A DNA stretch of 64,000 nucleotides, taken from contig JAUSOQ010000062.1 in assembly GCA_030655755.1 (NCBI GenBank), positions 1 to 64,000 on the forward strand. Reading direction: 5' to 3'. The stretch comes from Coriobacteriia bacterium. Lineage in GTDB: Bacteria; Actinomycetota; Coriobacteriia; Anaerosomatales; Anaerosomataceae. The number at the start of each line of letters is the position of its first letter. Positions within the stretch are counted from its first letter, which is position 1. This document shows positions 15,522 to 39,483 of this stretch, in pieces. The notes beneath the pieces were generated by a model. It had not been told where the DNA came from and searched no databases. It saw only the letters and a program-made list of their open reading frames with translations. Position numbers and translations under genes: made by a program.

Positions 15522-15534
15522 AGGGAATATTACA

Positions 15535-15602: not shown

Positions 15603-15604
15603 CG

Positions 15605-16339: not shown

Positions 16340-16402
16340 TTCAAACAAAAACCAAATTAAACTGTTAACAAGGGGCAACCCTACTAAAATAAATGAATAG
16401 AT

Positions 16403-17032: not shown

Positions 17033-17065
17033 TTCAATAAAATCGTGTGATTTTAAAAGCTAAGA

Positions 17066-17100
17066 TTTAACCGCCTTCTTTATTAAAGTTGGCGGTTAAA
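17066..17100. terminator. Hairpin between convergent nitroreductase and dsbD genes
   Basis: TTTAACCGCC and GGCGGTTAAA form a perfect 10-bp stem with a 15-nt loop. The stem includes the last codons of dsbD. No strong T tract follows on either strand, so terminator function is likely but not certain. Confidence 0.5.
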
Positions 17101-19077: not shown

Positions 19078-19116
19078 CTTATGTTTGTTTTAGTCACTTT
19101 AGGGATTATTGACAGA

Positions 19117-19124
19117 CAAAAGTA
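19117..19124 (-). promoter_or_regulatory. Putative -7 box of dsbD
   Basis: TACTTTTG on the minus strand is a full TAnnTTTG match 40 bp before the dsbD start, in the divergent gap with glyS. A clear -33 TTG is missing. Confidence 0.45.
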
Positions 19125-19175
19125 TTAAATTTATATAAAAAGCACTAATTTCGCAGTTTATAAACAATTGTAATT

Positions 19176-20714
19176 ATGACACAGGAGGAGTTATTCAAGA
19201 GTCTAATAGCACACGCAAAGGAGTATGGTTTCATTTTTCAGTCCAGTGAGGTTTACGATGGCCTGAGTGCAGTGTATGACTACGGACAGTTGGGGGTGGA
19301 ACTCAAGAATAACATCAAGAAATACTGGTGGGATGCAATGGTTCGTCTTAACGAAAATATTGTTGGGATTGACTCTGCAATATTCATGCATCCTAAAATT
19401 TGGGAAGCCTCGGGACACGTTGGTGCATTTAACGACCCTTTGATTGATAACAAGGATTCAAAAAAGAGATACAGAGCAGATGTCTTGCTTGAGGACTACA
19501 TTGCAAAGCTCGAAGAGAAGATTGAGAAGGAGGTTGAGAAGGGAAAGAAGAAGTTTGGTGAAACCTTTGATGAGGCTCAGTTTCGTGCAACAAATCCCAA
19601 TGTTTTAAGGAACAGGGTTAAGGCCGACGAAGTGACTGCCAAAATGAACGAGTCTCTTAACAGCGGTGACCTTGAAGCTGTAAGACAACTTATAATTGAC
19701 TGTGAAATAGCTTGTCCGGTTTCGGGTTCAAGAAACTGGACCGAAGTGAGGCAGTTTAACCTTATGTTCTCTACCCAGATGGGCAGCGTAAGTGAAGATG
19801 CCGGGACAATCTACCTCAGGCCGGAAACGGCTCAGGGTATCTTCGTAAACTTTTTGAATGTTCAGAAGACCGGCAGAATGAAGATTCCATTTGGTATTGC
19901 CCAGATAGGCAAAGCCTTTAGAAACGAAATCGTAGCCCGTCAATTCATTTTCAGAATGAGGGAGTTTGAGCAGATGGAGATGCAGTTTTTTGTTCGCCCC
20001 GGAGAAGAGATTTCGTGGTTCGAGAAGTGGAAAGAGGCGCGCCTGAAGTGGCACTTAGCGCTAGGCTTAGGTGAGAGTAAATACAGGTTTCACAATCACG
20101 AGAAACTGGCACACTACGCAAATGCTGCTGCCGATATCGAATTTGAGTTTCCATTCGGCTTCAAGGAGCTTGAGGGAATTCATTCAAGGACCGACTTCGA
20201 CCTTTCGCAGCACCAGAAGTTTTCGGGCAAAAAGATGCAGTACTTCGATCCTGAAACAAACGAGAACTATGTTCCTTATGTAGTTGAGACATCCATTGGC
20301 CTTGACAGAACATTCCTAGCAATATACTCCTCTTCGTATTGTGAAGAGAAGCTGGAAAACGGAGAGGATAGGGTAGTTTTAAGGCTTCCTGCTTTTCTTG
20401 CACCGGTTAAACTTGCTGTTTTGCCTCTTGTTAAAAAGGACGGTCTTCCGGAGTTTGCAAGAAAGATTATGGACGATCTCAAGTACGACGTTAATTGCCA
20501 ATATGACGAAAAGGACAGCATAGGAAAGAGATACCGCCGTCAGGATGCTATTGGTACCCCGTTCTGCATCACAATCGATCATCAAAGCTTAACCGACAAT
20601 ACAGTTACAATCCGTTACAGGGATTCAATGGAACAAGAGCGCGTTCCTGTTGAAGATTTGAGAAAAATAATTGAGGAGAAGGTAAGCATGAGAAAAGTAT
20701 TGGAACAAATTTAA
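19176..20714 (+). CDS. glyS: Glycine-tRNA ligase (dimeric type)
   Basis: 512 residues, the alpha2-type GlyRS used by Bacteroidetes, actinobacteria and eukaryotes. Class II motifs are present: RPETAQGIFVNF (motif 2 region), GIAQIGKAFRNEI, FIFRMREFEQMEMQFF, and GLDRTFLAIY (motif 3). The C-terminal anticodon-binding domain contains LAPVKLAVLPLV and RYRRQDAIGTPFCITID. It charges tRNA-Gly. The next gene begins 13 bp downstream, so the two may share a transcript. Confidence 0.96.
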   Translation: MTQEELFKSLIAHAKEYGFIFQSSEVYDGLSAVYDYGQLGVELKNNIKKYWWDAMVRLNENIVGIDSAIFMHPKIWEASGHVGAFNDPLIDNKDSKKRYRADVLLEDYIAKLEEKIEKEVEKGKKKFGETFDEAQFRATNPNVLRNRVKADEVTAKMNESLNSGDLEAVRQLIIDCEIACPVSGSRNWTEVRQFNLMFSTQMGSVSEDAGTIYLRPETAQGIFVNFLNVQKTGRMKIPFGIAQIGKAFRNEIVARQFIFRMREFEQMEMQFFVRPGEEISWFEKWKEARLKWHLALGLGESKYRFHNHEKLAHYANAAADIEFEFPFGFKELEGIHSRTDFDLSQHQKFSGKKMQYFDPETNENYVPYVVETSIGLDRTFLAIYSSSYCEEKLENGEDRVVLRLPAFLAPVKLAVLPLVKKDGLPEFARKIMDDLKYDVNCQYDEKDSIGKRYRRQDAIGTPFCITIDHQSLTDNTVTIRYRDSMEQERVPVEDLRKIIEEKVSMRKVLEQI

Positions 20715-20727
20715 CACCACATAAACT

Positions 20728-21705
20728 ATGTCAAATCTTTCAGTTAACTACCTCGGGCTGGCACTAAAATCGCCAATCCTTGCGGCAAGCTCCGGACTTA
20801 CGGCACAATTGGACAGGGTTGCAGAATTCGAGAGGGCAGGAGTGGGTGCAATAGTGGTAAAATCACTATTTGAGGAGCAGATTGTAAACGAGGCAGAGTT
20901 TCTAAACTCACAGTCACATGACTATCCGGAGTCGGCAGATTATCTTCACCACTACTTGCGTCAAAACTCCATTGACAGATATCTGAAATTGATTGAGGAT
21001 GTAAAGAGGACTGTTTCGGTTCCTGTCATAGCAAGCATAAACTGCTTTTCTACAGGCGAATGGACACTCTTTGCCAAAGAGATAGAGAGTGCCGGTGCAG
21101 ACGGACTGGAGCTTAATATATATTCGCTTCCTTTGAATGTGCACAAAAAATCTGACGATATTGAAAAGGAGTATTTCAATGTGGATTCAAAGGTTTCAAA
21201 AAGCATTGGAATTCCTGTAGCGGTAAAAATAGGCTCAAATTTTACAAACATTCCTGGGTTCGTAAGCAACCTAAAAGCTAATGGTGCAAAGGGAGTTGTT
21301 ATGTTCAACCGTTTTTACAGCCCCGATATTGACATAAAGAAATTGAGGATTTTCCCTGCTGATGCCTTCTCTCATCCTGACGAGTACCTTAAGGAGCTTC
21401 GTTGGATGGGTATAGTTTCGGCACTCGTTCCGGGTATTGACCTTTCTGCAAGCACCGGTATTCACAACGGAACAGTAGTTCTGAAACAGATTCTTGCAGG
21501 TGCTGCAACTGCTCAGATGTGCACTGCGCTTTATAAAAAAGGTGGCGATGCAATATCTAACGCTATTGCAGATCTTAACCTCTTTATGGATTCACAAGGG
21601 TTTAAAAACATCTCTGATTTCAAAGGCAGGCTTAATTATTCAAACATTGAGAACCCGGAAAAATTTGAAAGGGTTCAGTTTATGAAGAGTTTCGGGAGTA
21701 AGTAA
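20728..21705 (+). CDS. Dihydroorotate dehydrogenase-like protein
   Basis: 325 residues, FMN-dependent TIM barrel. NYLGLALKSPILAASSGLTA opens the barrel, INCFSTGEWTLFAKEIESAGADG covers the active-site loop, and VAVKIGSNFTN holds the FMN-contacting Lys. Proteins of this subtype are annotated as DHODH-like and are distinct from PyrD, so a pyrimidine role is not assured. It follows glyS closely on the same strand. Confidence 0.85.
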   Translation: MSNLSVNYLGLALKSPILAASSGLTAQLDRVAEFERAGVGAIVVKSLFEEQIVNEAEFLNSQSHDYPESADYLHHYLRQNSIDRYLKLIEDVKRTVSVPVIASINCFSTGEWTLFAKEIESAGADGLELNIYSLPLNVHKKSDDIEKEYFNVDSKVSKSIGIPVAVKIGSNFTNIPGFVSNLKANGAKGVVMFNRFYSPDIDIKKLRIFPADAFSHPDEYLKELRWMGIVSALVPGIDLSASTGIHNGTVVLKQILAGAATAQMCTALYKKGGDAISNAIADLNLFMDSQGFKNISDFKGRLNYSNIENPEKFERVQFMKSFGSK

Positions 21706-21729
21706 TTTTTGAATTAACTTAATTGTCGA

Positions 21730-22170
21730 TTATTTACGCTGCTGCTCATTTACACCTCTTTTCATAATGAAAAAGAGAACCAGATAGAGCAATGGCAGAT
21801 TGATAATGTTAAGCACAAGAAAAGCAATAAACCCCTGTCCGTAGATAAAAAGGATAACAAATAACTGTATCAAAAGATTGATAAAGAAGGCATAACGCAT
21901 TGCGTCATGCCTTTTTTGCATTATCCCCACACCCTCATTCCTCTCTTTTGAAAATATCATAAGAGCCAAACCTGTCAGGTAAAGAATGAGTATAAGTTCA
22001 TCGGCAAAATTTGTTTTGAAGAACGCAAACATTTTGGTTTCAAAGAAGGCAGAGTGCACTGCAAACACTGTCATCTCAAAGCGGAAGTTAAACCCAAAAT
22101 ATAGTACAGTAAACGCCACAGCCACCAGGACAATAGTAAGACCTAAATATTTAAAGCGATAATTTATCAT
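21730..22170 (-). CDS. Small integral membrane protein of unknown function
   Basis: 146 residues with about four predicted membrane segments: near 8-26, 55-72, 93-112 and 114-134. The C-terminus is short and basic. No motif I recognise. It starts 16 bp after the radical SAM gene on the same strand, so it is probably the last gene of that unit. Confidence 0.7.
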   Translation of the reverse strand: MINYRFKYLGLTIVLVAVAFTVLYFGFNFRFEMTVFAVHSAFFETKMFAFFKTNFADELILILYLTGLALMIFSKERNEGVGIMQKRHDAMRYAFFINLLIQLFVILFIYGQGFIAFLVLNIINLPLLYLVLFFIMKRGVNEQQRK

Positions 22171-22186
22171 ATCAGAAAGGTGTATT

Positions 22187-23461
22187 TTAATGTTTGTTGG
22201 TTTTGAATCTGTTTCCGGCGTGTAGCAGCCAGAAGAGAATATTAATCATCCTCTTTTCTGATTTTGGAATACCGGCAAATATTTTATCTGCCACCGGCCT
22301 CCATTGCTTTGCGATAGGCATTGTCTTTGAGGCTAATTCTTTGGCACTTTCGGGATGGTACAGGTGGGTTGACCTCACATTCTCTCCTTCGGTCAGTTCA
22401 ACAATTGCTTCAGGCAGATCCATCATAGGGCAGGGAGTTAGATAATTTTTTGAAAAGGGCTTTTTCTGACGGAATCTGTCTAAAAACGGAGATTGCAATG
22501 CTTCAAGGAGTGAAATGTTACTAATGTTTGTATCTGAATAGTGGCAAAACGCACATGGTTCAACATCACCGTTTGAATTAATGTGTAAAAAATCGGTTCC
22601 TGCAGCAACGCACCCCATAGACTTATGTCCCGTATTAGCAAAATCGATAAGCGTATACTGATATCTTTTATGGTAATCTTTAATCTTCTCCATCACATAC
22701 GCTCTTTGTTCAGCATTGCAGCAAAGAGAGACATCAGAGTCGCTTCCTATAGGCATGTAGTTGAAAAGCCAGCCCAGCCATGCTCCCTTTTCTCTCATGA
22801 AATCAAGAAATTCATCACTGCAGATTGTCTTATAGTTTTTTGAGTGATAACAAACCGAAAAACCAAAGCCGTGATCTCTCTCCTTAAGTAAATCCATTGC
22901 TTTCAATACTTTGTCATACGTTCCTGATCCCCTTCTGAAATCTGTATCTTCTCTGAACCCCTCAATGCTGATGAATAGGTTTAGATTTCCAAGCTCCGAG
23001 AGGGTATCTGCAAATTGCTCATCTACCAGAGTACCATTTGTGAACATTGCAAATGTGATATCGCTGTGCTTTTTTACCAGTTTAACAATATCATCCTTCC
23101 TCATTAAGGGCTCCCCTCCCGACATTACAATCTCCATAACCCCAAGAGATTTGGCGTCAGTGATTATTTCATCAAGTTTTTCAAAAGAGATATCGCTGTT
23201 TTTGCTATAATCGGCCGCCCAGCAACCCTTACACCTGAGATTACATCTGCTGGTAGGATCAATCAGGAGATCTCTCGGTATAGCACAGTCATATCGTCTC
23301 TTCATTCTTACCTCTTTGACGAACCTCATATGCCCATTAATAGTAAGAAAAGAGTACAGGTTTTTAACGGCAAAAAACCTGTAGCACCTGTAAACATAGT
23401 CTTTATGATGGGGATATGGTGGGATCTTTTTCTTCTCACCATTTATCAGTAGATACCTCAT
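22187..23461 (-). CDS. Radical SAM/SPASM domain protein
   Basis: 424 residues. The radical SAM cluster motif is CNLRCKGCW at ~residue 73 (CxxxCxxC). MSGGEPLMRKDD is the SAM-binding GGE motif. A C-terminal Cys set (CVAAGTDFLHINSNGDVEPC, CHYSD, then CPMMD) matches a SPASM-type auxiliary cluster region. SPASM proteins modify peptides or maturate enzymes, but no precursor peptide is visible nearby, so no substrate is assigned. A lipoprotein gene precedes it and a membrane protein gene follows, all on one strand with short gaps. Confidence 0.88.
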   Translation of the reverse strand: MRYLLINGEKKKIPPYPHHKDYVYRCYRFFAVKNLYSFLTINGHMRFVKEVRMKRRYDCAIPRDLLIDPTSRCNLRCKGCWAADYSKNSDISFEKLDEIITDAKSLGVMEIVMSGGEPLMRKDDIVKLVKKHSDITFAMFTNGTLVDEQFADTLSELGNLNLFISIEGFREDTDFRRGSGTYDKVLKAMDLLKERDHGFGFSVCYHSKNYKTICSDEFLDFMREKGAWLGWLFNYMPIGSDSDVSLCCNAEQRAYVMEKIKDYHKRYQYTLIDFANTGHKSMGCVAAGTDFLHINSNGDVEPCAFCHYSDTNISNISLLEALQSPFLDRFRQKKPFSKNYLTPCPMMDLPEAIVELTEGENVRSTHLYHPESAKELASKTMPIAKQWRPVADKIFAGIPKSEKRMINILFWLLHAGNRFKTNKH

Positions 23462-23498
23462 TATGTTTTTTAAAAGAAATTCTTATTCCGGAAATCCG

Positions 23499-24140
23499 CT
23501 AATTATTGGCACTGCTGTAAATTGGAATTTGTGCTGTAGTCCCGTCATCAAACTCAAACTTAATAGACACCAGACCCCATTTATGATTTCCATAATAGGT
23601 TATCTTTTTTATACCTTCTCTGTTGACATTCTCTTCTACTTTCATCACTTTTATTAGCATTCCCCCCCAGTAGAAATCGTCGCTTGAAGATTTTTCTGTA
23701 ACAATTCGTTTTCCGGATGAGCCAAGAATCTCATATTGATCACCAACGCTTGAGCTATATTTGAAAATAATTCCCGGCGCAAAACCCGTTACGCTTTCAA
23801 TACCTTCTGACGTATTTTTGAATTTAAAACCGGTAAATGTAACGGTGTTTCCACTAAAACTGAATCCCGGCACATTTGACAAAGTGTTCTTAAAGGAGGT
23901 GTTAGAGACAGAGGCGGTTCCGGAAAATGATGAAACTCCCCCGCTAAGATTTGTGACCGAGGCTTGAATATTGCTTACACCATTTATGGCTGTGCTTGAA
24001 GATGTTACAGTAACGCCGACCTGTCCCATGGGTGACTGTGTTCCGCCGAGTTTAGACCCTGTGATTGCCTCCTCAATAAGGTCACAAGAGGTGAGAAGAA
24101 AGAGAGAGGAGATAACTACTAATTTCAGAAGATTTTTCAT
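23499..24140 (-). CDS. Predicted lipoprotein of unknown function
   Basis: 213 residues. The N-terminus is a lipoprotein signal peptide, VVISSLFLLTSC, with the lipobox Cys near residue 19. The mature part is rich in Ser, Thr, Gly and Asn with alternating hydrophobic residues, suggesting beta structure. No known domain recognised. It lies 37 bp upstream of the radical SAM gene on the same strand. Confidence 0.72.
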   Translation of the reverse strand: MKNLLKLVVISSLFLLTSCDLIEEAITGSKLGGTQSPMGQVGVTVTSSSTAINGVSNIQASVTNLSGGVSSFSGTASVSNTSFKNTLSNVPGFSFSGNTVTFTGFKFKNTSEGIESVTGFAPGIIFKYSSSVGDQYEILGSSGKRIVTEKSSSDDFYWGGMLIKVMKVEENVNREGIKKITYYGNHKWGLVSIKFEFDDGTTAQIPIYSSANN

Positions 24141-24153
24141 AGCAAAAAAGATT

Positions 24154-24192
24154 AAGGGTTAACTAAATTATGAGTAAAATTAGTCAACCCTA
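24154..24192 (-). terminator. Putative terminator of asnA
   Basis: On the minus strand an ~12-bp stem (AGGGTTGACTAA with TTAGTTAACCCT, one mismatch) is followed by a T-rich tract. It lies ~80 bp past the asnA stop and just before the lipoprotein gene. Confidence 0.55.
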
Positions 24193-24269
24193 AGCCTTTT
24201 TTGATTTCAATGTGTCAATTTCTCGGGTTATTTACGATTTGGTGATAAGTAAAATGCCGGGAAATGCAG

Positions 24270-25307
24270 TTACATTAGCTCAATGCCTGCTTTTTTACAC
24301 TCATTTTTTATCTCATCTGTCCATATGCTGCATTGGATTTCACCAATGTGGCACTTACGTAAAAGGAACATACAAAGCCTTGATTGTCCGATACCTCCGC
24401 CTATTGTGTAAGGGAGATTGCCTGCCAGCAACTCTTTGTGGAACATCAACTCCTTTTTCCACTCCTGATTACGGATTTTCAGCTGTTTTTCCATTGCTGA
24501 CTCATCAACGCGTATTCCCATGCTGGAAATCTCAAATGAACTTTGCAAAACAGGATTCCATAGCAGAAGGTCGCCATTCAGGCCATAATAACCATCTTCG
24601 TTTTTGGTGCTCCAATCGTCGTAGTCTGCTGCTCTTCCGTCGTGAGGGTTGCCATCTGTAAGTTCGTGTCCTATTCCTATTACAAAAACAGCCTTATATT
24701 TCTTTGTAATCTCATTCTCGCGCTCTTTTGGAGTCAGGCCCGGATACATCTCCAGCAACACCTGTGCGTGAATGAAGAACAGATCTTCCGGTAATGATGG
24801 TACAATCTGGGGGTACTCTACATATATTCTGTTTTCAGTTACTCTAATTGCTTCGTAAATTCTTCTTACAGTGCTTCTAAGGAAAGAGAGGTTTCTGTCC
24901 TCTTTGCTGATGACCTTTTCCCAATCCCACTGATCCACATAAATAGAGTGGATATTGTCCATCACCTCGTCCGGACGGATTGCGTTCATATCTGTATAAA
25001 TTCCACGATTATGATTCATCTTCATTTCTGACAACTTCACCCTCTTCCACTTGGCAAGAGACTGAACTACCTCTGCAGGTGCCTCATTAAGGTCTTTAAC
25101 GGGAAAGGTTACTGGCCTCTCTACTCCGTTAAGATCGTCATTGATACCGGTCCCTTTAAGCACCATAACAGGTGCAGTGACTCTGAGAAGAACCAGCTGA
25201 GCGGACAGGTTACTCTGGAACATGTCCTTAACCAGCTTAATACCCTTTTGGGTATTCTCTACATTTTCAAGGATATTTCTATATCCTTTTGGAATTAATA
25301 CTGACAT
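24270..25307 (-). CDS. asnA: Aspartate-ammonia ligase (asparagine synthetase A)
   Basis: 345 residues, close to E. coli AsnA (330). YVDQWDWEKVI and the long class II synthetase-like core are diagnostic. IGHELTDGNPHDGRAADYDDW and YTIGGGIGQSRLCMFLLRK are the ATP/aspartate-binding regions. It makes asparagine from aspartate, ammonia and ATP. It starts 20 bp after the histidine kinase stop, but a separate -7-like box (TATATTTG, 25320-25313) lies just before the ATG. Confidence 0.96.
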   Translation of the reverse strand: MSVLIPKGYRNILENVENTQKGIKLVKDMFQSNLSAQLVLLRVTAPVMVLKGTGINDDLNGVERPVTFPVKDLNEAPAEVVQSLAKWKRVKLSEMKMNHNRGIYTDMNAIRPDEVMDNIHSIYVDQWDWEKVISKEDRNLSFLRSTVRRIYEAIRVTENRIYVEYPQIVPSLPEDLFFIHAQVLLEMYPGLTPKERENEITKKYKAVFVIGIGHELTDGNPHDGRAADYDDWSTKNEDGYYGLNGDLLLWNPVLQSSFEISSMGIRVDESAMEKQLKIRNQEWKKELMFHKELLAGNLPYTIGGGIGQSRLCMFLLRKCHIGEIQCSIWTDEIKNECKKAGIELM

Positions 25308-25327
25308 TGGTACAAATATATTTGGGG

Positions 25328-27007
25328 TTAGAATTTATGTGGAATTGTAAAACTGAAGCAGGAACCCTTACCTGGTTCGCTCTCCACCTTAATGCTGCCT
25401 CCTAACAGTTTTACGTTTGCCTTTGCAATTGCAAGGCCAAGACCTACTCCGCTAAAACTTTTATTCAGAGAGGTTTCGCCTTGGATGAAATAGTCAAAAA
25501 TTCTTTCATGCAGTTCTGAAGGAATGCCTATTCCCTGGTCCTTTACATAAAATCTGATAAATGTTATTGTCTTTTCAAAACCGTATTCAATTGTTCCCTC
25601 CGGAGAGTATTTAATAGCGTTATTTATCAGATTGTCAATTATCTGACACACCTTTTCGCGGTCAGTATAGAGAATGACATCATCAGAAGAGTTCTGGGTT
25701 TTGTTTACCAAAAGGAGCCCTTTACCGGATGCTTTATAATTATGGTTAGTGTGGATGTTTACCATCATATCTTTTAGCGAAAAAGGAGATTCGTGAATCT
25801 CTTCCTGTCCTGACTGAAGCCGGGATACATTCATCAGATCGCCTAAAAGCTCCATCATTTTCAAACTGTTGGAATGGATAATCCCAACATATTGCATCCT
25901 TTGCTCCTGTGTAAGGTCAGGGTCATTCAAAAGTTCAGAGAACCCCATAATGCTGTTCATTGGTGTTCTTGTTTCGTGGCTGATATTTGCAAGAAATCTG
26001 GTTTTGAGTGTGTCTGCCTGCTCTGCCAACTCTTTTGCCTGCTTAATCTCCTCCTCCTGCTTTTTGTAATTTTCGAAAAGAGTGGCTATCTGAGCAAACT
26101 CACCGGGAGCCTTCTTTAACATACTAATATCATTTGAACTCTCTCTCTTAAGTATGTTCTCAACATGCTTAAGAGGCTTAATTACCCAGAGACGGGTCGC
26201 GTATCTGATTGTAATCCAGACAAAAGAAAGCGATATTATAAGAACTACCATCATATAAACCGAGCTGCTGTTGTAAAGCTTAAACACAGGATTCTCTCTA
26301 AGAAATAGTGCTCCGCCAATATTAGCGCCATTATATCCGGGAAAGGCTATATTACTGTGAAGAATGTAATCTTTATGGTCATCATTGCTAACAGACTTGC
26401 CAATAGTTATTTGGGATGATGTAAACTCAGATAGATACTGTACCGTTTTAGCGTCCCAAAGTTTTCCGACAAATATATAGCCGGAAGGTTTTGTTTCGGT
26501 TCTGTTCTGGTCAAAAGTGGGGTGAATTGAAGCAGAAGCAATCTCCATATAACCCTCAGTTGTTTCAATAAAGAAGTTTAAAAGTCTCTTTTTATCGAGT
26601 AACTCAAGAACTCCCTCAGGAATAACCTCCTTTAAGCGGTAATCTTCAGAGCAGCGTTCGTATAAAAGCTCGTTTGAAATACTATAAACAGCCACATAAT
26701 CATAGTCATAAGAGGTAAGAATGGTTAGTATATTTTGATCAAACCATGTTGAGTTCCCTCCTTTAGACATAATCTCGGTAAACTCGTCCCAGTATGTATA
26801 GTCAAAGACGATTTGTCTAAGTCCTTTGCTGTTAAGATTTATTATTGATGTGATTTCCCGGTGAAACTGTTCATCGGATTCTTCATGAATCATTTTTGAC
26901 TGCCTTTTTTGTAAAGTAAGCAGGGTTGTAAAGAGCAGCAAAAAAATCGCACCTGTATAGGTAATCAATAAAAATAATCTGTTGTTTAATCCGGGACTCT
27001 TTTTCAT
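25328..27007 (-). CDS. Membrane sensor histidine kinase
   Basis: 559 residues from [10 protein letters not shown]. Two membrane helices (about 8-28 and 250-270) bracket a ~220-residue extracytoplasmic domain resembling CHASE4. A HAMP-like linker and coiled coil precede HisKA with the phospho-His in [23 protein letters not shown]. The ATPase follows with [13 protein letters not shown] (N box), DQGIGIP (G1) and [10 protein letters not shown] (G2). The start at 27007 is preferred because AGAAGGA lies 9 bp upstream. No response regulator is adjacent, so the partner is unknown. The preceding gene encodes an outer-membrane protein 10 bp from the upstream in-frame ATG. Confidence 0.9.
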
Positions 27008-27050
27008 GTTATTAAAATCCTTCTGTTTAATCATTATCAAAAAGCAAATA

Positions 27051-27794
27051 CTAAAACCCGACTGCTATGGCAAAAAATGTTTTCTTAAGTGCCGGATTTG
27101 CTGTTAAGGAAAAAGAGATAAATGTAGAGTATTTTCCAAAATCCCAAAGGTATCTTAAATATGAGCAGCCAATATTCACAAATCCGCTATGCGGAGCATA
27201 GTATTCTCCCTTGAACTGATAACCGGCTACAAGGGCTATTTCATTTTTTCCAAACTCTCTAACATACTCAACCTCTCCATAGAGACTTTTGGTGGGATCT
27301 GCTCCCAAAAACAGAGAACTTAGCATAAGATTAAATTGATTTCTCTCACCGGTTGAATAAATTATCTGTCCTTCAAACATATGAGAGGTTGTAGCGGAGT
27401 TGTAGTCGAAATACTGTGTTCGTATGGTCTTGTCATAAGACCAATAATCCCATAATGCGAATGTAAATTTACCCGCCTCTTTTGAGATATAAAAATCAAG
27501 CTCGGGCTCTCCCTCCCCTGCAATTTTTAACGCACTCCACGCACCCAAAGTAAAACCTCTCCAGGACAACTCGGCACCCGGCTGAAATGACGGGGCGTGT
27601 CCGTAATCCTGACCTCTCCACAAATATCGACTTACCAATTGTGCATTTGCCGTGAATTCAACATTTGCTGATTTCTCAATTTTAGCAGAATCATTAGCGT
27701 TTAAAAACTCATTACCCTCTTCATTGTGTGCTATAAGAGAGGCCGGTACGAGCAGCAAAACAGAAATCACAATAAACGGCAGGTACCGAGTCAT
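27051..27794 (-). CDS. Predicted outer-membrane beta-barrel protein
   Basis: 247 residues. A signal peptide ([17 protein letters not shown]) is followed by alternating hydrophobic/polar strands rich in aromatic residues and a C-terminal Phe, typical of outer-membrane barrels. [23 protein letters not shown] resembles the opening strands of TorF/porin-like families. The ligand is unknown. Upstream of the sensor kinase and probably co-transcribed with it. Confidence 0.72.
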
Positions 27795-28061
27795 AAAAAA
27801 ATGTAAGCGATTAGTAATAAATGGGCGGATAAAGATATGAAAATATTTTAGTGAAACACACGAGTAGCTTGCATTTTCAGCATTTTTAAAAACATGAAAT
27901 ATTTAAGACCCGAACAACCAAGGCAACAACTTCACAGTGCTTTATGGCATACAGTATTTCTTCGTATGAGTATAGAGTCTAGTTTGCTAGCACGAAATTA
28001 GCCGGGTCGCTTTTGTGCAAAAGTGTGTTAATATAGGTTTTTACAATACAAGTGTGGGAAT
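27795..28061. other. AT-rich non-coding stretch before the junction
   Basis: No convincing gene. A 35-codon plus-strand frame begins at an ATG near 27893 but matches nothing I recognise and has no good ribosome-binding site. CTTTTG-TG-CAAAAG (28010-28023) is a short perfect palindrome. Base composition is still of the Bacteroidetes type. Confidence 0.5.
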
Positions 28062-28107
28062 AAAAAAAGCTTGATAACCTGCATACGCATTAGATTATCA
28101 AGCTTTT
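28062..28107 (-). terminator. Terminator downstream of tRNA-Pro
   Basis: On the minus strand AAAAGCTTGATAA pairs with TTATCAAGCTTTT around a 17-nt loop and ends in a T tract. It lies four bases after the tRNA-Pro 3' end. Composition marks it as part of the Bacteroidetes piece. Confidence 0.85.
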
Positions 28108-28110
28108 ATG

Positions 28111-28184
28111 TCGGGGTACTCCGACTCGAACGGAGGACCCCCTGCTCCCAAAGCAGGTGCGCTACCAAACTGCGCTACGGCCCG
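28111..28184 (-). tRNA. Chimeric tRNA-Pro (anticodon TGG) at the assembly junction
   Basis: D-arm (GCGC/GCGC), anticodon stem CCTGC/GCAGG with loop TTTGGGA (anticodon TGG), and T-arm CTCCG-TTCGAGT-CGGAG all pair. The acceptor does not: 5' CGGGCCG against 3' TACCCCG pairs at four positions, then gives C-C and C-A mismatches. The 5' half would pair with CGGCCCG and the 3' half with CGGGGTA, so each half looks like part of a different, normal tRNA-Pro. The flank on the 5' side is GC-rich, on the 3' side AT-rich. The crossover must lie in the conserved core, about 28,130-28,177. No CCA is encoded. Confidence 0.85.
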
Positions 28185-28284
28185 ACCGCACGCTCAAGAC
28201 CCTTGGTCATACGGGGCGCAGGAGCGAAGAACAGTATAGAGGCGCGCCGAGGGTGACACAACCGCTCCGGGAACGGTCTTCTTT

Positions 28285-28896
28285 TTAGAATGCTTCTGGA
28301 GCCAGCGCCTTACGTAGCGCCAGAAGCGCTGCGCCGCGGTGACTGATCTTGTTCTTCTCCTCAAGCGTCAGTTCCGCCATCGTACGTCCTCCTGCTGCGA
28401 GCGGCCGGAACAGCGGGTCGTAGCCAAAGCCGCCCTCGCCTCTCGGCGTGCGTGCAATGACTCCCTCACACGCGCCCTCCGCCACCGTCTCGGTTCCCTC
28501 AGGGTGTACCAGAACGACCACACTACGAAACCGCGCAGTGCGATCCGGCTCGGCGACCGCAGCAAGCGCTTCGAGCAGCTTACGGTTGTTCGCAGCATCA
28601 TCACCATCCACGCCCGCATAGCGCGATGAGTACACGCCAGGCTCACCATCCAGAGCGTCGACCTGCAGACCACTGTCATCGGCGAGCGCGGACATCCCGA
28701 AACGCTCGGCGTACGCTCTAGCTTTCAAGCGAGCATTCTCAAGGAACGTCGTGCCCGTCTCTTCCACCTCGAGCGGCTCGAAGCCAAGGTCAGCGGCGGT
28801 TGTGAACTCGAAACCCGGCAGATCGACGGTGGACCGGATCTCGGCCAGCTTGCCCTTGTTCGACGTCGCGACTATCACGAGCAGGGGCTCATCCAC
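28285..28896 (-). CDS. rdgB: Non-canonical purine NTP pyrophosphatase, RdgB/HAM1 family
   Basis: 203 residues. VIVATSNKGKLAEIR is the opening substrate loop, ALADDSGLQVDALDGEPGVYSSRYAG the catalytic Asp/Glu region, and GEGGFGYDPLF the base-recognition loop. It hydrolyses ITP, XTP and dITP to keep them out of nucleic acids. A GTG at 28896 is taken as start since it overlaps the rph stop and gives the usual short lead into the first strand; a TTG at 28920 is the longer option. It is the last gene of the murI-MBL-rph-rdgB run. Confidence 0.94.
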   Translation of the reverse strand: MDEPLLVIVATSNKGKLAEIRSTVDLPGFEFTTAADLGFEPLEVEETGTTFLENARLKARAYAERFGMSALADDSGLQVDALDGEPGVYSSRYAGVDGDDAANNRKLLEALAAVAEPDRTARFRSVVVLVHPEGTETVAEGACEGVIARTPRGEGGFGYDPLFRPLAAGGRTMAELTLEEKNKISHRGAALLALRKALAPEAF

Positions 28897-29632
28897 CGTA
28901 CGTCTCAAATCCTCCGGCAATGACCTGTCGCTGCAGATCGATCAGCCGACCAGCTCCGGCAAGCGAGAGATCCAGCAGTTCATCGAGGCGCTTGCGGTCG
29001 AACGGCGTGCGTTCACCGGTGCCCTGGATCTCGATAAGGCGACCCTTGCCGTCCACGACCACGTTCATGTCCACCTCGGCCACACTGTCCTCAGAATACT
29101 CGAGGTCCAGCAACACCTCGCCGTCGACCACACCGACCGATGTCGCAGCAACGAAGTCGATCAACGGTAGCGACTCGATACGACCCGCATCCCGCCAGCG
29201 TGCGAACGCATCCTGCACAGCGAACAGGGCGCCGGTGATGGCGGCTGTCCGCGTGCCGCCATCTGCTTGGATCACGTCGCAGTCGACGTTCATCGTGTAC
29301 TCGCCGCCCATGCCACCCATGTCGACGACGGTGCGCAGAGACCGGCCGATGAGCCGCTGGATCTCGTGAGTACGACCTCCGGGAGCACCCTGATTCACTT
29401 CGCGACGCGTCCGCGTGTGCGTCGATGCCGGGAGCAGCGAGTACTCGGCGGTCACCCAGCCGAGCCCCGAGCCGCGTCGCCAGCTGGCGACCTGCTCGGA
29501 GATGTTCGCGGCGCACAGCACCTTCGTGTCACCCAACTCGAACAGACACGAACCGTGCGCGTGCTTCAAGTAGCCTCGCGTCAGCCGGACCGGTCTTAGT
29601 TCATCGTTCGCACGTCCACCGCTGCGCTGCAT
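28889..29632 (-). CDS. rph: Ribonuclease PH
   Basis: 247 residues, standard size. GSCLFELGDTKVLCAANI, YSLLPASTHTR, EIQRLIGRSLRTVVD, and NVDCDVIQADGGTRTAAITGA are conserved RNase PH blocks, the last holding phosphate-site residues. It trims tRNA 3' ends phosphorolytically. Overlaps rdgB by eight bases and follows the MBL gene by 13 bp. Confidence 0.97.
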   Translation of the reverse strand: MQRSGGRANDELRPVRLTRGYLKHAHGSCLFELGDTKVLCAANISEQVASWRRGSGLGWVTAEYSLLPASTHTRTRREVNQGAPGGRTHEIQRLIGRSLRTVVDMGGMGGEYTMNVDCDVIQADGGTRTAAITGALFAVQDAFARWRDAGRIESLPLIDFVAATSVGVVDGEVLLDLEYSEDSVAEVDMNVVVDGKGRLIEIQGTGERTPFDRKRLDELLDLSLAGAGRLIDLQRQVIAGGFETYGG

Positions 29633-29645
29633 CGGCTATGCCCCC

Positions 29646-30395
29646 TTATGGAAACGTCAGGTCAAAAAGCTCATCGGCCACGATAACACGGCCGCAGAAG
29701 ATCTCACTGGCCTCACGAGCGGCAGCCGCTCTATCTACGGTAGGCCACAGGTGTGACAGCACGAGTGTGCGCACATCCGCTTTCACGGCAAGTTCGGCCG
29801 CCTCCCCTGCTGTCATGTGCGCCACCTTGCCGCGATACGCCGGTGGCAGCGTGGCCTCGGCAAGTAGCACGTCTGCATCATGTGCAGCAGCGATCACCGC
29901 ATCCCCGGGAGCCGTGTCGGCGGTGTAGCACAGCATGGCGCCGTCATCGATCGCAACGAGGGCGAAGGTAGGCTCGACGTGATCGACCTTATGCGGGATG
30001 ACGGTGAGATCGCCGATACCGATGACCCTATCCTCCTCGAGTTCACGCACGAGGAACGCCTCGGCCAGCTCGATACGACCGCGCTGCGAGAGCACCGCGC
30101 CCATCCGTTCGAACAGACCTGGAGGTACATGCAGCGGCATCGGCGGACGCGGACCGTCGGGAGCGTAACGCAGCGCGGCCTGCAACGCATAGACGTCTGC
30201 GAAGTGGTCGACGTGCTCGTGTGTGATGAACACCGCATCAAGCGCGAGAGGGTCCATCACCTTGCCGAGATTGGAGAGCACGCCGTTGCCGCAGTCGAAG
30301 AGCACCGCGGTCTCACCGCTGCGTATAAGATGTCCGGAACACGCACGGCCCGCATCGGCGAAGCTCGCCGCCGAACCGAGGACCGTCAGTCGCAT
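29646..30395 (-). CDS. Metallo-beta-lactamase fold hydrolase (RNase Z-like)
   Basis: 249 residues. FITHEHVDHFADV is the HxHxDH zinc motif, GSAASF at the start and LLAEATLPP plus LVLSHLWPTV supply later ligands. Closest in layout to the short RNase Z/arylsulfatase-like MBL group, but it lacks the long RNase Z arm, so tRNA processing is only a possibility. It overlaps murI by ten bases and precedes rph, a context seen in other actinobacteria. Confidence 0.85.
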   Translation of the reverse strand: MRLTVLGSAASFADAGRACSGHLIRSGETAVLFDCGNGVLSNLGKVMDPLALDAVFITHEHVDHFADVYALQAALRYAPDGPRPPMPLHVPPGLFERMGAVLSQRGRIELAEAFLVRELEEDRVIGIGDLTVIPHKVDHVEPTFALVAIDDGAMLCYTADTAPGDAVIAAAHDADVLLAEATLPPAYRGKVAHMTAGEAAELAVKADVRTLVLSHLWPTVDRAAAAREASEIFCGRVIVADELFDLTFP

Positions 30396-31309
30396 GCCGA
30401 CTCGCCCGCATCGAATGCTCGCAAAGCCTCACGCAGCCGTCCATCCAAGAGAGCCTCGAGTTCACTGAGCGACACCTGCGCGACATCGGTGGTACGCCGA
30501 CGCAGCACGCGCCCACCCAGCCGCGCGAACTCGTCAACATCGCCGGTCGTGACGTAGCGCTCGAATCGACCTTCGTCCGAGGCGAGCTGGTCTCGTGCCT
30601 CCAGGGTGGCCGCCACCTCGCGCGCCGTTTCCTCAGCGGAAGAGATCAGACGGACGTTGGCGCCGACAACCTGCTGGATCGCCGCTGAGAGCAACGGGAA
30701 GTGCGTACAGCCGAGGACGAGGGTGTCGATACCGTTGCGTTTGAGTGGATCGAGATAGTCGCGAGCCATCTCGTAGAACGAGGGACGGATGAAGACATCC
30801 GACGACTCTGAGAGCCAATCCTCGAGCGTGCCCGGACCCATGCGCAGCCCCTGCTCGACCACATCGACAAAACGCGGCGTCGCCACCGAGAACACCGTGG
30901 CTCCCGCATCGAGCAGCCTGACGGCAGCACTGTATACGCCGGAATCTACCGTACCGACCGTCCCGATGACACCGACTTTGCGATTGATGGTCGCCTTGAC
31001 AGCAGCCCGGGCGCCCGGCTCGACAACACCCACGACGGGCACATCGAACACCTGCTGCGCAAGTGCAAGCCCCGCTGCCGTGGCGGTATTGCAGGCGATG
31101 ACAATGAGCTTCACCGGCTGGCGAGCTAGCCACGACCCTATCTGCAGCACGAATTCGCGGACCTCGTGAGGCTGCCTTGGACCGTAGGGGCAGCGCGCCG
31201 TGTCACCGAAGTAGACGACGGACTCCTCGGGCAGCGCACGCATGATCTCACGCGCGACCGTCAGACCGCCGAGTCCGGAATCAAAGACACCTATGGGTAG
31301 CGTATGCAT
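30386..31309 (-). CDS. murI: Glutamate racemase
   Basis: 307 residues. GVFDSGLGGLTVAREI carries the first catalytic region, VIACNTATAAGL the first Cys, and LVLGCTHFPLL the second Cys with its His. It makes D-glutamate for peptidoglycan. Start MHTLPIGVFDSG at 31309 is preferred over an in-frame codon 11 positions upstream because the fold begins at once. It follows cheB by 29 bp, linking the chemosensory genes to the murI run. Confidence 0.95.
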   Translation of the reverse strand: MHTLPIGVFDSGLGGLTVAREIMRALPEESVVYFGDTARCPYGPRQPHEVREFVLQIGSWLARQPVKLIVIACNTATAAGLALAQQVFDVPVVGVVEPGARAAVKATINRKVGVIGTVGTVDSGVYSAAVRLLDAGATVFSVATPRFVDVVEQGLRMGPGTLEDWLSESSDVFIRPSFYEMARDYLDPLKRNGIDTLVLGCTHFPLLSAAIQQVVGANVRLISSAEETAREVAATLEARDQLASDEGRFERYVTTGDVDEFARLGGRVLRRRTTDVAQVSLSELEALLDGRLREALRAFDAGESACD

Positions 31310-31338
31310 GGGAGCAGTATATCTCTCTGAAGAGGGCC

Positions 31339-32397
31339 TCACACGAGACCGGCAAGGCGCTCGAGTTCGGCACCGATATCCTGAACACCGAGGACCTTGC
31401 GCGCGGCGCCGGCTTCGATCGCGGCCTTCGGCATCCCAAACACGATCGAGGTCTCCTCGTCCTGCGCAATCGTGAAGCCGCCTGCATCGAACAGCGCCTT
31501 GAGCCCGACGGCGCCATCGGCGCCCATGCCGGTGAGCAGAACACCAACACCCCGCTCATGACACGACCTGGCCACAGATTCGAACAACGTGTTCGCCGAG
31601 GGAATGTAGAGCTGGTCCTTCTTCGGCTTTGTGAAATGCACGCGATCGCCGGAGACCTCGGTGTTCATGCCGGTCGGCGCGACATAGGCACGGCCTGCGG
31701 CAAGCTCCTCACCATCCACTGCCTGCACGATCTTGATCGCACAATTCCCGTCGAGCCATGACACGAGGCCGGGCACAAAACCGTCGGCGATGTGCTGTGC
31801 GATAACGATGGGCAACGGGAAGCCAGGGCGCAACCTACCAAGTACGGACAGGAGTGCCGAGGGGCCACCCGTGGACGAGCCGATCGCCACAAGTGATCGA
31901 GAGCTGATCGGCGGCCCTGCAGCAGCAGAACGCGCGCCTCCGACCAGCTGATCGCGCTTGCCACGTATATGCGTGATCACCTTGACGCGAGAGAGCACGC
32001 GCACCCTACGGATCATGGCGCGACCGATGCTGTCCAGCTCTGCCCAGTCGCGAGGCTCGGGCTTCTTCACGACCTCCAGAGCTCCGGCGGACAGTGCATC
32101 GAACGCCCGGCCCACACCCTCACCATGCACAGAACTCGACACCACCAGGATCGGCGTCGGCGTGTATGCCATTATCCGCTCGGTCGCGGCAAGACCATCC
32201 ATCTTGGGCATATGGATGTCCATCGTCACAAGATCGGGGCGCAGCCGCTCGACCATCTCGACGCCCTCGGCACCGTCGTGTGCCATGCCGACGATCTCGA
32301 TATCTGGGTCGCTGCTCAGTATCTGAGCAAGCATCTCACGGGCTACGAGCGAATCATCAACGATCAGCACTCTGATGTGGCGCGGCAAGTCCAACAC
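31339..32397 (-). CDS. cheB: Chemotaxis protein-glutamate methylesterase CheB
   Basis: 352 residues. An N-terminal receiver (VLIVDDSLVARE, phospho-Asp in VTMDIHMPKMDG) is joined by a linker to the methylesterase domain, with Ser in GSSTGGPSAL, His in IAQHIADGFVPG and Asp in LTGMGADGAVG. It demethylates receptor glutamates and opposes CheR. It lies 26 bp after cheA at the end of the chemosensory set. Confidence 0.96.
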   Translation of the reverse strand: MLDLPRHIRVLIVDDSLVAREMLAQILSSDPDIEIVGMAHDGAEGVEMVERLRPDLVTMDIHMPKMDGLAATERIMAYTPTPILVVSSSVHGEGVGRAFDALSAGALEVVKKPEPRDWAELDSIGRAMIRRVRVLSRVKVITHIRGKRDQLVGGARSAAAGPPISSRSLVAIGSSTGGPSALLSVLGRLRPGFPLPIVIAQHIADGFVPGLVSWLDGNCAIKIVQAVDGEELAAGRAYVAPTGMNTEVSGDRVHFTKPKKDQLYIPSANTLFESVARSCHERGVGVLLTGMGADGAVGLKALFDAGGFTIAQDEETSIVFGMPKAAIEAGAARKVLGVQDIGAELERLAGLV

Positions 32398-32423
32398 GCT
32401 CTCCTTCTCCCGGCGGCACGGCG

Positions 32424-34685
32424 CTAGCGGATAAGACGCTCCACCGTCTCGAGCAGCGTGTCTTGATTGAACACGGACTTCGTAATGTAGGCATCCGCAC
32501 CTGCGTCGATCCCCTCGGCCTTTTCCTCATCACGCTCAAGGGAGGTGACGATAGTCACTGGCAAATGCTTGAGTGTCTCATCGGACTTGATGGCCTTCGT
32601 AAGTTGAAAGCCTGTCATGTTCGGCATCTGCACGTCGGTGACGACCGCGTCTACCTTGAGCCCGTCGCGCAGCATCGCAAGACCGAGCGCGCCGTCGGTG
32701 GCCGTCTCGACCTTGTAGCCGGCAGCTTCGAAGATGGAGCGCTCAAGTTCGCGTGTCGTGAAAGAGTCTTCACAGATGAGGATGCACTTTGGCTCGGTCG
32801 ACTTCTCGTTCTTCTTCCCATTCGACTCCCGGACACGCATCCCGGCCATCCGACGACCGTTCTCCATGAGTTCGGGGACATTGAGGATCGGGATCACTTG
32901 CCCCGCTCCAAGCACGGTGACCCCGGCGATGTTGTCCACGTGACGCAGGTGCGTGCCGAGGTTCTTGATCACGATCTGCTGCTCGCCCACCAGGCTGTCG
33001 ACGATGAATCCGATTCGATGACCGGAGAAACCCACAGTCGCGATCGGAATCTTGCCGCCATCACTGGGCGCGCCCTCGATACCGAGAACGTCACATAAGC
33101 GCACCAACGGGACAGTCCGACGTTGACGACGAATGACCTCGTGACCCTCTACCTTGATGGTCTCAGACGCCGAGACACGCAGGGTCTCCTCGATGGATGC
33201 GGTCGGCAATGCGAAGGTACGGTCACCGACCCGAAGCATGAGAGCGCGGATGATAGCGAGTGTGAGCGGTATCGTAAGGTGGAAGGTCGTACCCTCGCCG
33301 GGCGTCGACAGCACGTCTAGCGAACCCTTGAGTCTCTTGACGACGAACTCCCGGACGACGTCCATGCCCACACCGCGACCGGATATCTCGGTGATGATCG
33401 CGTTGGTCGAGAATCCGGTTTCGAAGATCAGGTACTGCGCCTCGCGATCGCTCATCGCCTTAGCTTCTGACGCCGTGATGTAGCCCTTGCGAACCGCCGC
33501 TGCCTTGACCTTCTCGGGATCGATACCCGCGCCGTCATCGGAGATCTCGATCACGATGTGATCGCCCTCCTGCCTGGCGGCGAGATGGATGGTTCCGGCG
33601 GCCGGCTTGCCCATCCCGACACGCTCCTCGGCCGGTTCCAGCCCGTGATCGACGGCGTTTCTCAAGATGTGGACGAGCGGGTCGTTGATCTCCTCCAAGA
33701 CTTTCTTGTCGAGTTCGGTGTCTCCGCCCTCGATCACGAGCTCAACGTCTTTCTTGTACTGATGTGCAAGATCGCGCATAGCCCGCGGGAAAGCGTTGAA
33801 CACTGTGCTCACAGGCAGCATGCGGAGCGACATCGAGTGCTCCTGCAGGTCCGCAACGACCGTCGATGTCCTGGCAGTATCATCGATATAGTCCTTGGCC
33901 GTCATGACGACGAGCCGCTTCAGGTCCGCCATCTGCTCGCCAAGGAACTCCGCATCGTCGCCGAGCTGGTCTCCACGCTCGGCTAGAAGGCTCACGTACT
34001 GTGCCTTCATCCTGGCCCAGAACTGCGAGATCTCGTTGACCAGTCCCTGCATGCGCCGAAAGTCCTTCACCCGTTGTTCGGCCTTGATCTGACTGATAAC
34101 GACCTCACTCACGAGATTCAACAAGTGGTCGACCTGTGCGATCCGTATCCGAACCGTATTCTGAGCCTTGGACTGAAGCTTCTCCTCTCGAACAGCTTGT
34201 ACCGAATCGGGCGGCACTGCCTCAGAGACGGATTCTGCAGCTCCGGCAGTGGACGACAGCGTCGGAGCGGACGACGGCATCGGGGCATCCGACTTCCCTC
34301 CCTCAGACACCACCGCAAGTCGTGCGATCAGGTCCGTGATGTCGACCTCGGCCGCTACGGGCTTGCCCGCGTTCTCGCAGAGGAACACTATCATGTCGAG
34401 CGCCTCGAACAGACCGTCCGACATGTCTGGCGTGTAGACCATAGCTCCGTCGCGGACCTTCACCATGATGTCTTCGAGCTTGTGGGCGACATCGGCGATC
34501 TCCAGCAGACCAACCATGCGCGAGCTGCCCTTGAGCGTGTGTGCGTCACGCAACATCTGGTCGATGAGTTCCCGATTGCCCGGGTCCCCCTCCAGCATGA
34601 TGACGCCCTCATTGAGCCGCTGCAGGTACTCCGTTGCCTCCTCTTGGAACTTGCCTATGAACGCTGACCGGTCGAACTCGACCAT
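32424..34685 (-). CDS. cheA: Hybrid chemotaxis histidine kinase CheA with C-terminal receiver
   Basis: 753 residues. Hpt domain with phospho-His in RDAHTLKGSSRMVG (~50). A ~50-residue Ser/Ala/Pro-rich linker follows with no recognisable P2 (CheY-binding) domain. Next are the dimerisation helices, the ATPase with ILRNAVDHGLE and DDGAGIDPEKV, a CheW-like domain (residues ~490-620), and a receiver with phospho-Asp in VVTDVQMPNMTG. One Hpt and one receiver recall a minimal form of the ChpA/FrzE-type kinases. The receiver may be a phosphate sink or an output. Confidence 0.95.
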   Translation of the reverse strand: MVEFDRSAFIGKFQEEATEYLQRLNEGVIMLEGDPGNRELIDQMLRDAHTLKGSSRMVGLLEIADVAHKLEDIMVKVRDGAMVYTPDMSDGLFEALDMIVFLCENAGKPVAAEVDITDLIARLAVVSEGGKSDAPMPSSAPTLSSTAGAAESVSEAVPPDSVQAVREEKLQSKAQNTVRIRIAQVDHLLNLVSEVVISQIKAEQRVKDFRRMQGLVNEISQFWARMKAQYVSLLAERGDQLGDDAEFLGEQMADLKRLVVMTAKDYIDDTARTSTVVADLQEHSMSLRMLPVSTVFNAFPRAMRDLAHQYKKDVELVIEGGDTELDKKVLEEINDPLVHILRNAVDHGLEPAEERVGMGKPAAGTIHLAARQEGDHIVIEISDDGAGIDPEKVKAAAVRKGYITASEAKAMSDREAQYLIFETGFSTNAIITEISGRGVGMDVVREFVVKRLKGSLDVLSTPGEGTTFHLTIPLTLAIIRALMLRVGDRTFALPTASIEETLRVSASETIKVEGHEVIRRQRRTVPLVRLCDVLGIEGAPSDGGKIPIATVGFSGHRIGFIVDSLVGEQQIVIKNLGTHLRHVDNIAGVTVLGAGQVIPILNVPELMENGRRMAGMRVRESNGKKNEKSTEPKCILICEDSFTTRELERSIFEAAGYKVETATDGALGLAMLRDGLKVDAVVTDVQMPNMTGFQLTKAIKSDETLKHLPVTIVTSLERDEEKAEGIDAGADAYITKSVFNQDTLLETVERLIR

Positions 34686-34715
34686 CCGGGTGTTCCTTCC
34701 TTCGCAGTCCGATTG

Positions 34716-35939
34716 CTAGCCGACGATCCTGAAGGCGCCGCCCACCTGGCTGGACTCCTTCGCGATGCCTGCAAGCTGCTCGGCCGCGCTGGCTACCTGC
34801 TTACTGCCTGCCGCCGTCTGCTGTGCCACCGCCGCGACCTCACGCATCGCGCTGACGACCTGCTCGGTAGCGCTCTTCTGCTGCTGCGTGGCAGCCGATA
34901 TCTCCTTGGCAGCAGTGGTAGTCTCTTCGATCATGTCGAGGATCTGCTCCAGGCTGTCGCCGGTCACTCCCGCAAGGTCGACGCCTGACTGCACCTGACG
35001 CAGTTCGGCCTCCGTGGAGATCACAAGGTCGTTCGCCGCACCCTGGATCTCGGTCATGATGATCTCGATCTCCCTCGTCGATTCGACGACCGACTCGGCC
35101 AGTTTGCGAATCTCGATGGCCACGACCGAGAATCCTTTACCCGCTTCACCGGCCCGCGCAGCCTCAATGGCTGCATTCAACGCGAGTATCTTCGTCTGGT
35201 CTGCAATGCTGTTGATGATAGTGAGTACCTGGCCGATCTGTTGACTACGCTCGCCCAACGACAGGATCTTGTTGGCCGACGACTGCGAACGACTCTTGAT
35301 CTCCTCCATCGCACTCAGGGTGTTCATGACAGCCTGCTGGCCGGACTCCGCGCTACCGAGAGACGCCTCGGCCATGCGCACCACCTGATCGGCGTTCTCG
35401 GCGATCTGGCGATATGTCGCCGCAAGCTCCTCCATCGTCGCCGTGGTCTGGCTGATCGAGGCGGCCTGCTCGGCAGCCCCAGAGGCCTGCTGCTCGGTGG
35501 CCGAGAGGATCTCGCTCGATGCCTGGTCAAGCCGGTGCGAGGACTCCTGGGTCTGCTTGATGAGGTAGACGATGAGATCGAGCATCTGGTTGTAGGAACG
35601 CGCCAGCACGCCGAACTCGTCTTTCGACTCGCATTTGACCTTGCGTCCGATATCGCCATCGCACGCGGCAGACACGCTCATGGCGACCTCGGTGAGCGGC
35701 GCCATGAAGTGCATACCGATCCTCACATACGCGTACACGAATACGATGGCCGAGATGGCGAACGCGCCCGACACGATCAGGACATCGGTGACGAGACCGA
35801 CCCGATCGGTGAAGCGCTCTTTGAACACGAGCCACGCGACGATGACCGCGAACGTGTTGAGAAGTAGGACCAATCCGAGGTTCACCAGCGAGTATTTCAG
35901 CAGGAAGGTGCCCCGAATCTTATCGATGAGTCGCCGCAT
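34716..35939 (-). CDS. Methyl-accepting chemotaxis protein without a sensory domain
   Basis: 407 residues. Two membrane helices (about 13-35 and 48-70) are separated by only ~13 residues, so there is no periplasmic ligand domain. A HAMP segment follows, then the signalling coiled coil with its hairpin tip in the region of [20 protein letters not shown] and [20 protein letters not shown]. Start [10 protein letters not shown] at 35939 has GGAGAG 4 bp upstream. Input may come through the membrane, a partner protein or the HAMP. Confidence 0.93.
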
Positions 35940-35956
35940 GGTCTCTCCGCTCCTCG

Positions 35957-36523
35957 TCACTCGTTCTCGCCAATGGGTGTCAGTATCTTCTCGAGATTGA
36001 TGACGCCTACGAGACGCCCGTCAAAGTACACAGAGCCGCTGACCCAATCTGCCTGCCCGCGGTCTGCAGTTGCAAGCGATGGCTCCAGCGCGTTTGCGGG
36101 CACTTCGACGATGTCGCCTATCTCGTCCACAAGCAAGGCGCTCACGCATTCCTCCGTTGAGGCGACGATCACGCTGGACTGCTCGGCATCCATAGTGTGC
36201 TCCAACTGACCCGACATGTGCATCAACGCCGCCAGGTCGGTGACCGAGACGATCTCTCCCCGGATGTTCACGATGCCGCGAATATAGTCTGGTACGCGCG
36301 GAATCGGTGTGATGCTGTAGTCGTTGTAGATCTCACGGACACTCTCGATACGGATCGCATACCACTCGTCAGCCAGCCTGAAGAGTAGCAGCGACATCAA
36401 GTCGACCTGTGCCTCACCTTGACCCTCGCTCGCAAGGGACTCGGCACGGCGTCGCAAGATGTCGATCGCCGCATCCGAGAACCCGTCAAAACCCCTGGAA
36501 GTCACTTCGCTCATCGCTCCCAT
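35957..36523 (-). CDS. CheW-type coupling protein (copy 1)
   Basis: 188 residues with a ~40-residue N-terminal extension. The CheW fold runs from [15 protein letters not shown] through [22 protein letters not shown] to GVINLEKI at the end. It bridges MCP and CheA. A second ATG at 36514 overlaps the stop of the preceding cheW in ATGA, and could be the true start. It ends 17 bp before the MCP gene. Confidence 0.93.
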
Positions 36524-37080
36524 CCCTGGACGAGGTCATCCACAGAAGCGAGGGCGTCCTCCGGAACGAGGCGCTGTGAGTCAAGGACGAAAAGCAACCC
36601 GTTATTCAGGCGGGCCACCCCGATGAGTCTCTCTGAGATGGTGTACAGGCGCGATGGCGCCTGCAGCGGTATACCGGTGAGATCTACGACATCGTCGACC
36701 TCATCGACAAGGTACGCCACAAGACGCCCCCCGACATGCGCGAACACCAGCGGAGTGTCGAGACGATACGGCGCCGCAGGCATAGCGAGCAGCAGCCTGA
36801 GGTCGATAAGCGGTACGACCGTACCGCGGAGATCGATCATCCCCACAAGTGCAGCCGCAGTACCCGAAACGGACGTATATTCGACGATCTGCTGAATCTC
36901 CTGGACCGCCTCGATGGGCAGCGCGTAACGCTGTCTGTCCACCATGAACACGATCACTTGACCGAGCCCGACCTCGAGATACTCCCCGGTTGACTCGGAT
37001 TCGCTGACTATAGCAGCGGATGCGGACTCCGCGACTGATCCAGTCATCGCCTCGGGTTCTGTTCTCTTCTTTCGCGGCAT
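36511..37080 (-). CDS. CheW-type coupling protein (copy 2)
   Basis: 189 residues with an acidic Ser/Glu-rich N-terminal extension of ~40 residues. CheW core: VIFMVDRQRYALPIEAVQEI, ALVGMIDLRGTVVPLIDL, and VVDLTGIPLQAPS. It differs enough from the neighbouring CheW to suggest a distinct partner or role. Its stop overlaps the next cheW start. Confidence 0.92.
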   Translation of the reverse strand: MPRKKRTEPEAMTGSVAESASAAIVSESESTGEYLEVGLGQVIVFMVDRQRYALPIEAVQEIQQIVEYTSVSGTAAALVGMIDLRGTVVPLIDLRLLLAMPAAPYRLDTPLVFAHVGGRLVAYLVDEVDDVVDLTGIPLQAPSRLYTISERLIGVARLNNGLLFVLDSQRLVPEDALASVDDLVQGWER

Positions 37081-37092
37081 TCGTCCACCCCA

Positions 37093-39021: not shown

Positions 39022-39031
39022 GACGCGGCTC

Positions 39032-39412: not shown

Positions 39413-39483
39413 GGCCTACTCCCTCCCACGACACGTGCCGTCGTGATGTATCGTCCCATCGGAAGTCGAACTTGAGGCGGCCA

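Follow-up and report, generated by a model that had tools for sequence, protein, structure and literature searches.

The window, i.e. the whole stretch of DNA analysed here (64,000 bases), comprises bases 1-64,000 of contig C8 (93,216 bases) of a MAG (G000) with a total size of 2.13 Mb in 81 contigs. It contains two sets of genes that meet at a tRNA-Pro(TGG) gene (Table 1). On the left are found genes for HflX, a TonB-C protein, tRNA-Ala, a malate/lactate dehydrogenase, YbeY, MnmG, RuvA, SufE, HPPK, a dimeric glycyl-tRNA synthetase (GlyRS), AsnA, a sensor kinase and a porin-like protein, all in all an ordinary housekeeping cargo that starts at base 1 of the contig. On the right are found RdgB/Ham1, RNase PH, an MBL-fold protein, glutamate racemase and CheB, followed by CheA, an MCP, a PilB-like ATPase, RNase R and tmRNA. 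The latter was located at 44409-44757 on the reverse strand and encodes the tag peptide VDNNYALAA.

Table 1. Features of the window, with positions counted from its first base and the evidence for each
Feature	Position	Strand	Evidence
Bacteroidetes chromosomal segment, foreign to the MAG, with which C8 begins (assigned by sequence)	1..28137	.	Colinearity with G041:C31 (81-87% nucleotide identity) and G055; protein families
Porin-like protein (Gcw_chp / TorF), last Bacteroidetes gene before the junction	27051..27794	-	Beside tRNA-Pro also in L017, L144 and L145
Terminator-like hairpin of the Bacteroidetes tRNA-Pro, lying downstream of it: AAGCTTGATAATC...GGTTATCAAGCTT and then a T run	28062..28109	-	Sequence; kept in relatives
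Hybrid tRNA-Pro(TGG), 5' part of the host lineage, 3' part of Bacteroidetes	28110..28184	-	ARAGORN, Rfam, informative sites
27-base core common to both parents, TAGCGCACCTGCTTTGGGAGCAGGGGG, holding the switch	28138..28164	-	Parental alignment
MAG's own genome (assigned by sequence)	28165..64000	.	G001 alignment; RNase PH - RdgB - tRNA-Pro order in G001 and family members

A first-pass annotation, made from the sequence of the window, had described an AT-rich, Bacteroidetes-like left part joined to a GC-rich, actinobacterial right part, and had proposed comparing the composition of the two halves and searching each of them separately for its neighbours in related genomes. The GC content is 39.8% to the left of the tRNA-Pro gene and 60.9% to its right, and a fourth-order Markov comparison placed the composition changepoint at 28,109. 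Of the overlapping 1-kb windows, none out of 55 to the left and 70 out of 70 to the right favoured the right-hand model; as both models were trained on these same two sides, these counts locate the break and do not constitute an independent proof of it.

The AT-rich, Bacteroidetes-like character of the left part was borne out by the searches. The entire left segment is colinear with a contig of HGW-Bacteroidetes-7 (G041:C31), mostly at 84-88% nucleotide identity and locally at 72-81%, and AsnA (24,270-25,307) shares 98% amino acid identity with its counterpart in that genome. A second relative, G055, matches at about 91-95% nucleotide identity over most of 16.3-28.1 kb. None of the genomes compared gave a 100% identical match to the left piece, so that none of them is the exact donor strain itself. 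Towards the junction, positions 28,062-28,185 align to Bacteroidetes relatives at 89-94%, and in all four close Bacteroidetes genomes that were read the same intact tRNA-Pro, identical in sequence, is found at this place. In these relatives Bacteroidetes genes continue beyond it: upstream of the tRNA-Pro, the sequences of G055 and G042 show partial colinearity with that of L017, and the window contains nothing of the L017 sequence beyond the tRNA-Pro. Judged by these alignments and its protein families, the window from position 1 to approximately 28,138 is to be assigned to a Bacteroidetes genome.

As for the right part, its GC-richness stood, and matches to a same-genus genome (G001) and to family members identify it as the MAG's own lineage; composition and gene content fit the expectation that it is actinobacterial, while the sequence searches themselves, including a comparison of RNase PH with the PDB, do not name the phylum. 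Positions 28,126-30,991 align to G001 at 76% nucleotide identity, and matches to the right half were obtained throughout the family and in most of the order. In these relatives the gene order is RNase PH - RdgB - tRNA-Pro, followed by tRNA-Gly(TCC), tRNA-Arg(TCT), tRNA-His(GTG) and tRNA-Lys(CTT); in G001, G006 and G008 this tRNA cluster is in turn followed by the genes for trigger factor (tig), ClpP, ClpX and ValS. For G019 and G011 no match to the tig, clpP, clpX and valS protein genes was obtained within the stretch fetched. On the basis of these alignments, the window from approximately 28,164 rightwards is to be assigned to the MAG's own lineage. The continuation formed by the four tRNA genes and tig-clpP-clpX-valS is absent after the tRNA-Pro of the window. 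The separate searches thus found, for both sides, relatives with an intact tRNA-Pro and a continuation of their own lineage.

The tRNA-Pro gene itself is a clean single-crossover mosaic. It obtained an Rfam score of 49.7 bits, compared to 63.2 bits for the tRNA-Ala in the Bacteroidetes part of the window. When the tRNA-Pro genes of G001 and HGW-Bacteroidetes-7 were taken as parents, sixteen informative sites (positions at which the parents differ) followed the pattern AAAAABBBBBBBBBBB, that is, one switch: on the 5' side (tRNA positions 5-20) five out of five sites agree with G001, and on the 3' side (tRNA positions 48-69) eleven out of eleven agree with the Bacteroidetes gene. The switch lies inside the core that both parents share (28,138-28,164), in agreement with the earlier proposal that two tRNA-Pro genes had crossed within an identical stretch; this stretch had been described as a D-to-anticodon core and is now delimited to 27 bases that begin late in the D-loop and include the anticodon arm.

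The consequences of this mosaic are visible in the acceptor stem, where 5' CGGGCCG faces 3' TACCCCG. The first-pass annotation had called this stem non-pairing, which is too strong: the outer four positions form Watson-Crick pairs (C-G, G-C, G-C and G-C), followed by two inner mismatches (C with C and C with A) and one G-U pair. Its hybrid nature was upheld, as was the prediction that each half would pair with the partner expected in place of the one present. Both parental stems pair at seven out of seven positions, and each half of the hybrid forms a complete stem with the partner of its own lineage (3' CGGCCCG in G001 and 5' CGGGGTG in Bacteroidetes). The minimum-energy structure of the hybrid is not a cloverleaf, while those of both parents are.

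The host continuation that is absent at the junction was searched for in the MAG through ClpX, trigger factor and tRNA-His, and an ortholog of none of the three was found. For ClpX, the best match in the MAG reached only 29% identity and 20 bits, while eight out of eight relatives gave matches at 73-100% identity; for trigger factor no match was found in the MAG. The orthologous tRNA-His was represented in the MAG by a match of only 22 bases, compared to matches of 91-100% in eleven of the twelve relatives, and the lost tRNA cluster as such was not found. One locus (C15:16585-16660) was considered as the tRNA-Lys of this cluster and rejected, being a tRNA-Lys(TTT) and not a tRNA-Lys(CTT). A free-living bacterium needs its own tRNA-His, and for this reason the stretch has to be regarded as lost from the bin. 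Such a loss is the expected effect of a wrong exit from a shared tRNA core. The MAG has been rated as 100% complete and 1.93% contaminated, a completeness score that masks the loss of this region as well as the presence of 28 kb of foreign DNA. In addition, two glycyl-tRNA synthetases that are unrelated to each other are present in the bin, namely GlyQ (C41) and the dimeric Bacteroidetes type (C8). MnmG and the dimeric GlyRS are found in the left half only and were considered as possible genes of the host itself; for GlyRS this was rejected, since the host, like its relatives, has a GlyQ, located on C41, and uses the other type of GlyRS.

Taken together, contig C8 is very probably a misassembled chimera of two genomes joined within the core of a tRNA-Pro gene. 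Both genomes could be recognized by their colinear relatives, the junction falls in exactly shared sequence, and on both sides the true continuation is present in relatives and absent beyond the junction. The mosaic, the two parentages and the missing essential genes of the host agree with the first-pass view of a chimeric metagenome contig and not a natural transfer. We infer that the junction arose in silico, most likely by the assembler and not by a chimeric library molecule. Two members of the community, the bin host and a Bacteroidetes related to HGW-Bacteroidetes-7, would both have an equally oriented tRNA-Pro(TGG) gene with the exact 27-base core; an assembler or gap-bridging step may have come into this core out of host sequence and gone on into Bacteroidetes sequence. 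Such a path would have fused the two genomes, produced a tRNA found in neither organism, added 28 kb of Bacteroidetes DNA to the bin, and dropped from it the host's true continuation, i.e. the tRNA-Gly/Arg/His/Lys cluster and tig-clpP-clpX-valS. Counting against misassembly, an overlap of 27 bases falls below the large k-mer sizes of the last assembly rounds, so that one has to suppose a round with small k, low coverage or a gap-closing step.

The same sequence outcome could have arisen in the tube, if templates had switched at the tRNA core common to both organisms, during amplification or while the library was being prepared, and had thereby generated chimeric reads that the assembler then followed. 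The 27-base identical stretch at the junction favours such PCR or amplification switching as well, and the assembly shows no sign either way; however, a single type of chimeric molecule would have had to prevail over the true junctions of the two genomes, and we consider this origin improbable.

A natural transfer, in which the 3' end of the host tRNA-Pro gene served as the integration site for a Bacteroidetes segment, is strongly disfavoured and carries a very small probability. tRNA genes are common integration sites, and C8 resembles tRNA-targeted integrative elements in having its foreign/host boundary inside such a gene. Unlike these elements, C8 carries a housekeeping cargo in its native, Bacteroidetes-colinear chromosomal order, and no integrase was present among the families of the scanned left-half ORFs of at least 120 amino acids. 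When integration is site-specific the tRNA is normally restored, but in C8 the acceptor stem is mismatched, the 3' end is not restored, and neither an att duplication nor a second copy of the tRNA 3' end occurs within the window, the left end of which is the contig end. Moreover, tRNA-His, ClpX and trigger factor would also have to have been lost from the host. A plasmid origin was considered and rejected, as the plasmid collection matched only the tRNA of approximately 80 bp. Very unlikely, too, is a real cross-phylum recombination at tRNA-Pro that placed 28 kb of Bacteroidetes DNA beside rdgB, with the lost essential genes merely unassembled. A genuine hybrid tRNA-Pro of the host, partly mispaired and made by homologous recombination between the tRNA genes of two phyla, would be in line with the clean switch in an identical core, but it demands the same loss of essential genes and a tRNA with two acceptor mismatches that, unlike both parents, does not fold into a cloverleaf, and its probability is negligible.

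Chimeric contigs arising from misassembly have been described as a relatively rare source of error in MAGs (PMC8201837). GUNC was built to detect chimerism at the contig level (Genome Biol 2021, PMC8201837), and phylum-level chimerism has been documented in public collections including GTDB (PMC8201837). The misassembled contig C8 is similar to these cases in that fragments of two sources are combined in one contig with a phylum-level switch of gene affiliation, in a MAG that still passes marker-gene checks. It differs from them in that the bridging sequence, the tRNA core, is readable and the true neighbour that was lost can be identified by name. Conserved tRNA cores can bridge genomes in assembly, of which C8 is a clean example, and it is worthwhile to screen for switches at tRNA genes inside contigs.

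The hybrid tRNA and the apparent gene neighbourhood around it are artefacts and not biology, and neither a hybrid tRNA nor a cross-phylum transfer should be concluded from C8. In the reference MAG the 28 kb should be trimmed, with a cut within 28,138-28,164, because otherwise MnmG, the dimeric GlyRS, AsnA, HflX, YbeY and further Bacteroidetes genes on it would be mistaken for genes that this lineage had acquired by transfer. Within the Bacteroidetes segment, the ORFs at 21730-22170 and 23499-24140 (both on the reverse strand) gave no Pfam match and are conserved in the DNA of Bacteroidetes relatives. Finally, the radical SAM gene at 22187-23461 (reverse strand) shows just 71-72% identity to G055 and HGW-Bacteroidetes-7, with flanks at approximately 84-95%, and lies inside an unbroken alignment of approximately 87% with G042; this pattern may reflect a possible allelic replacement among these Bacteroidetes.
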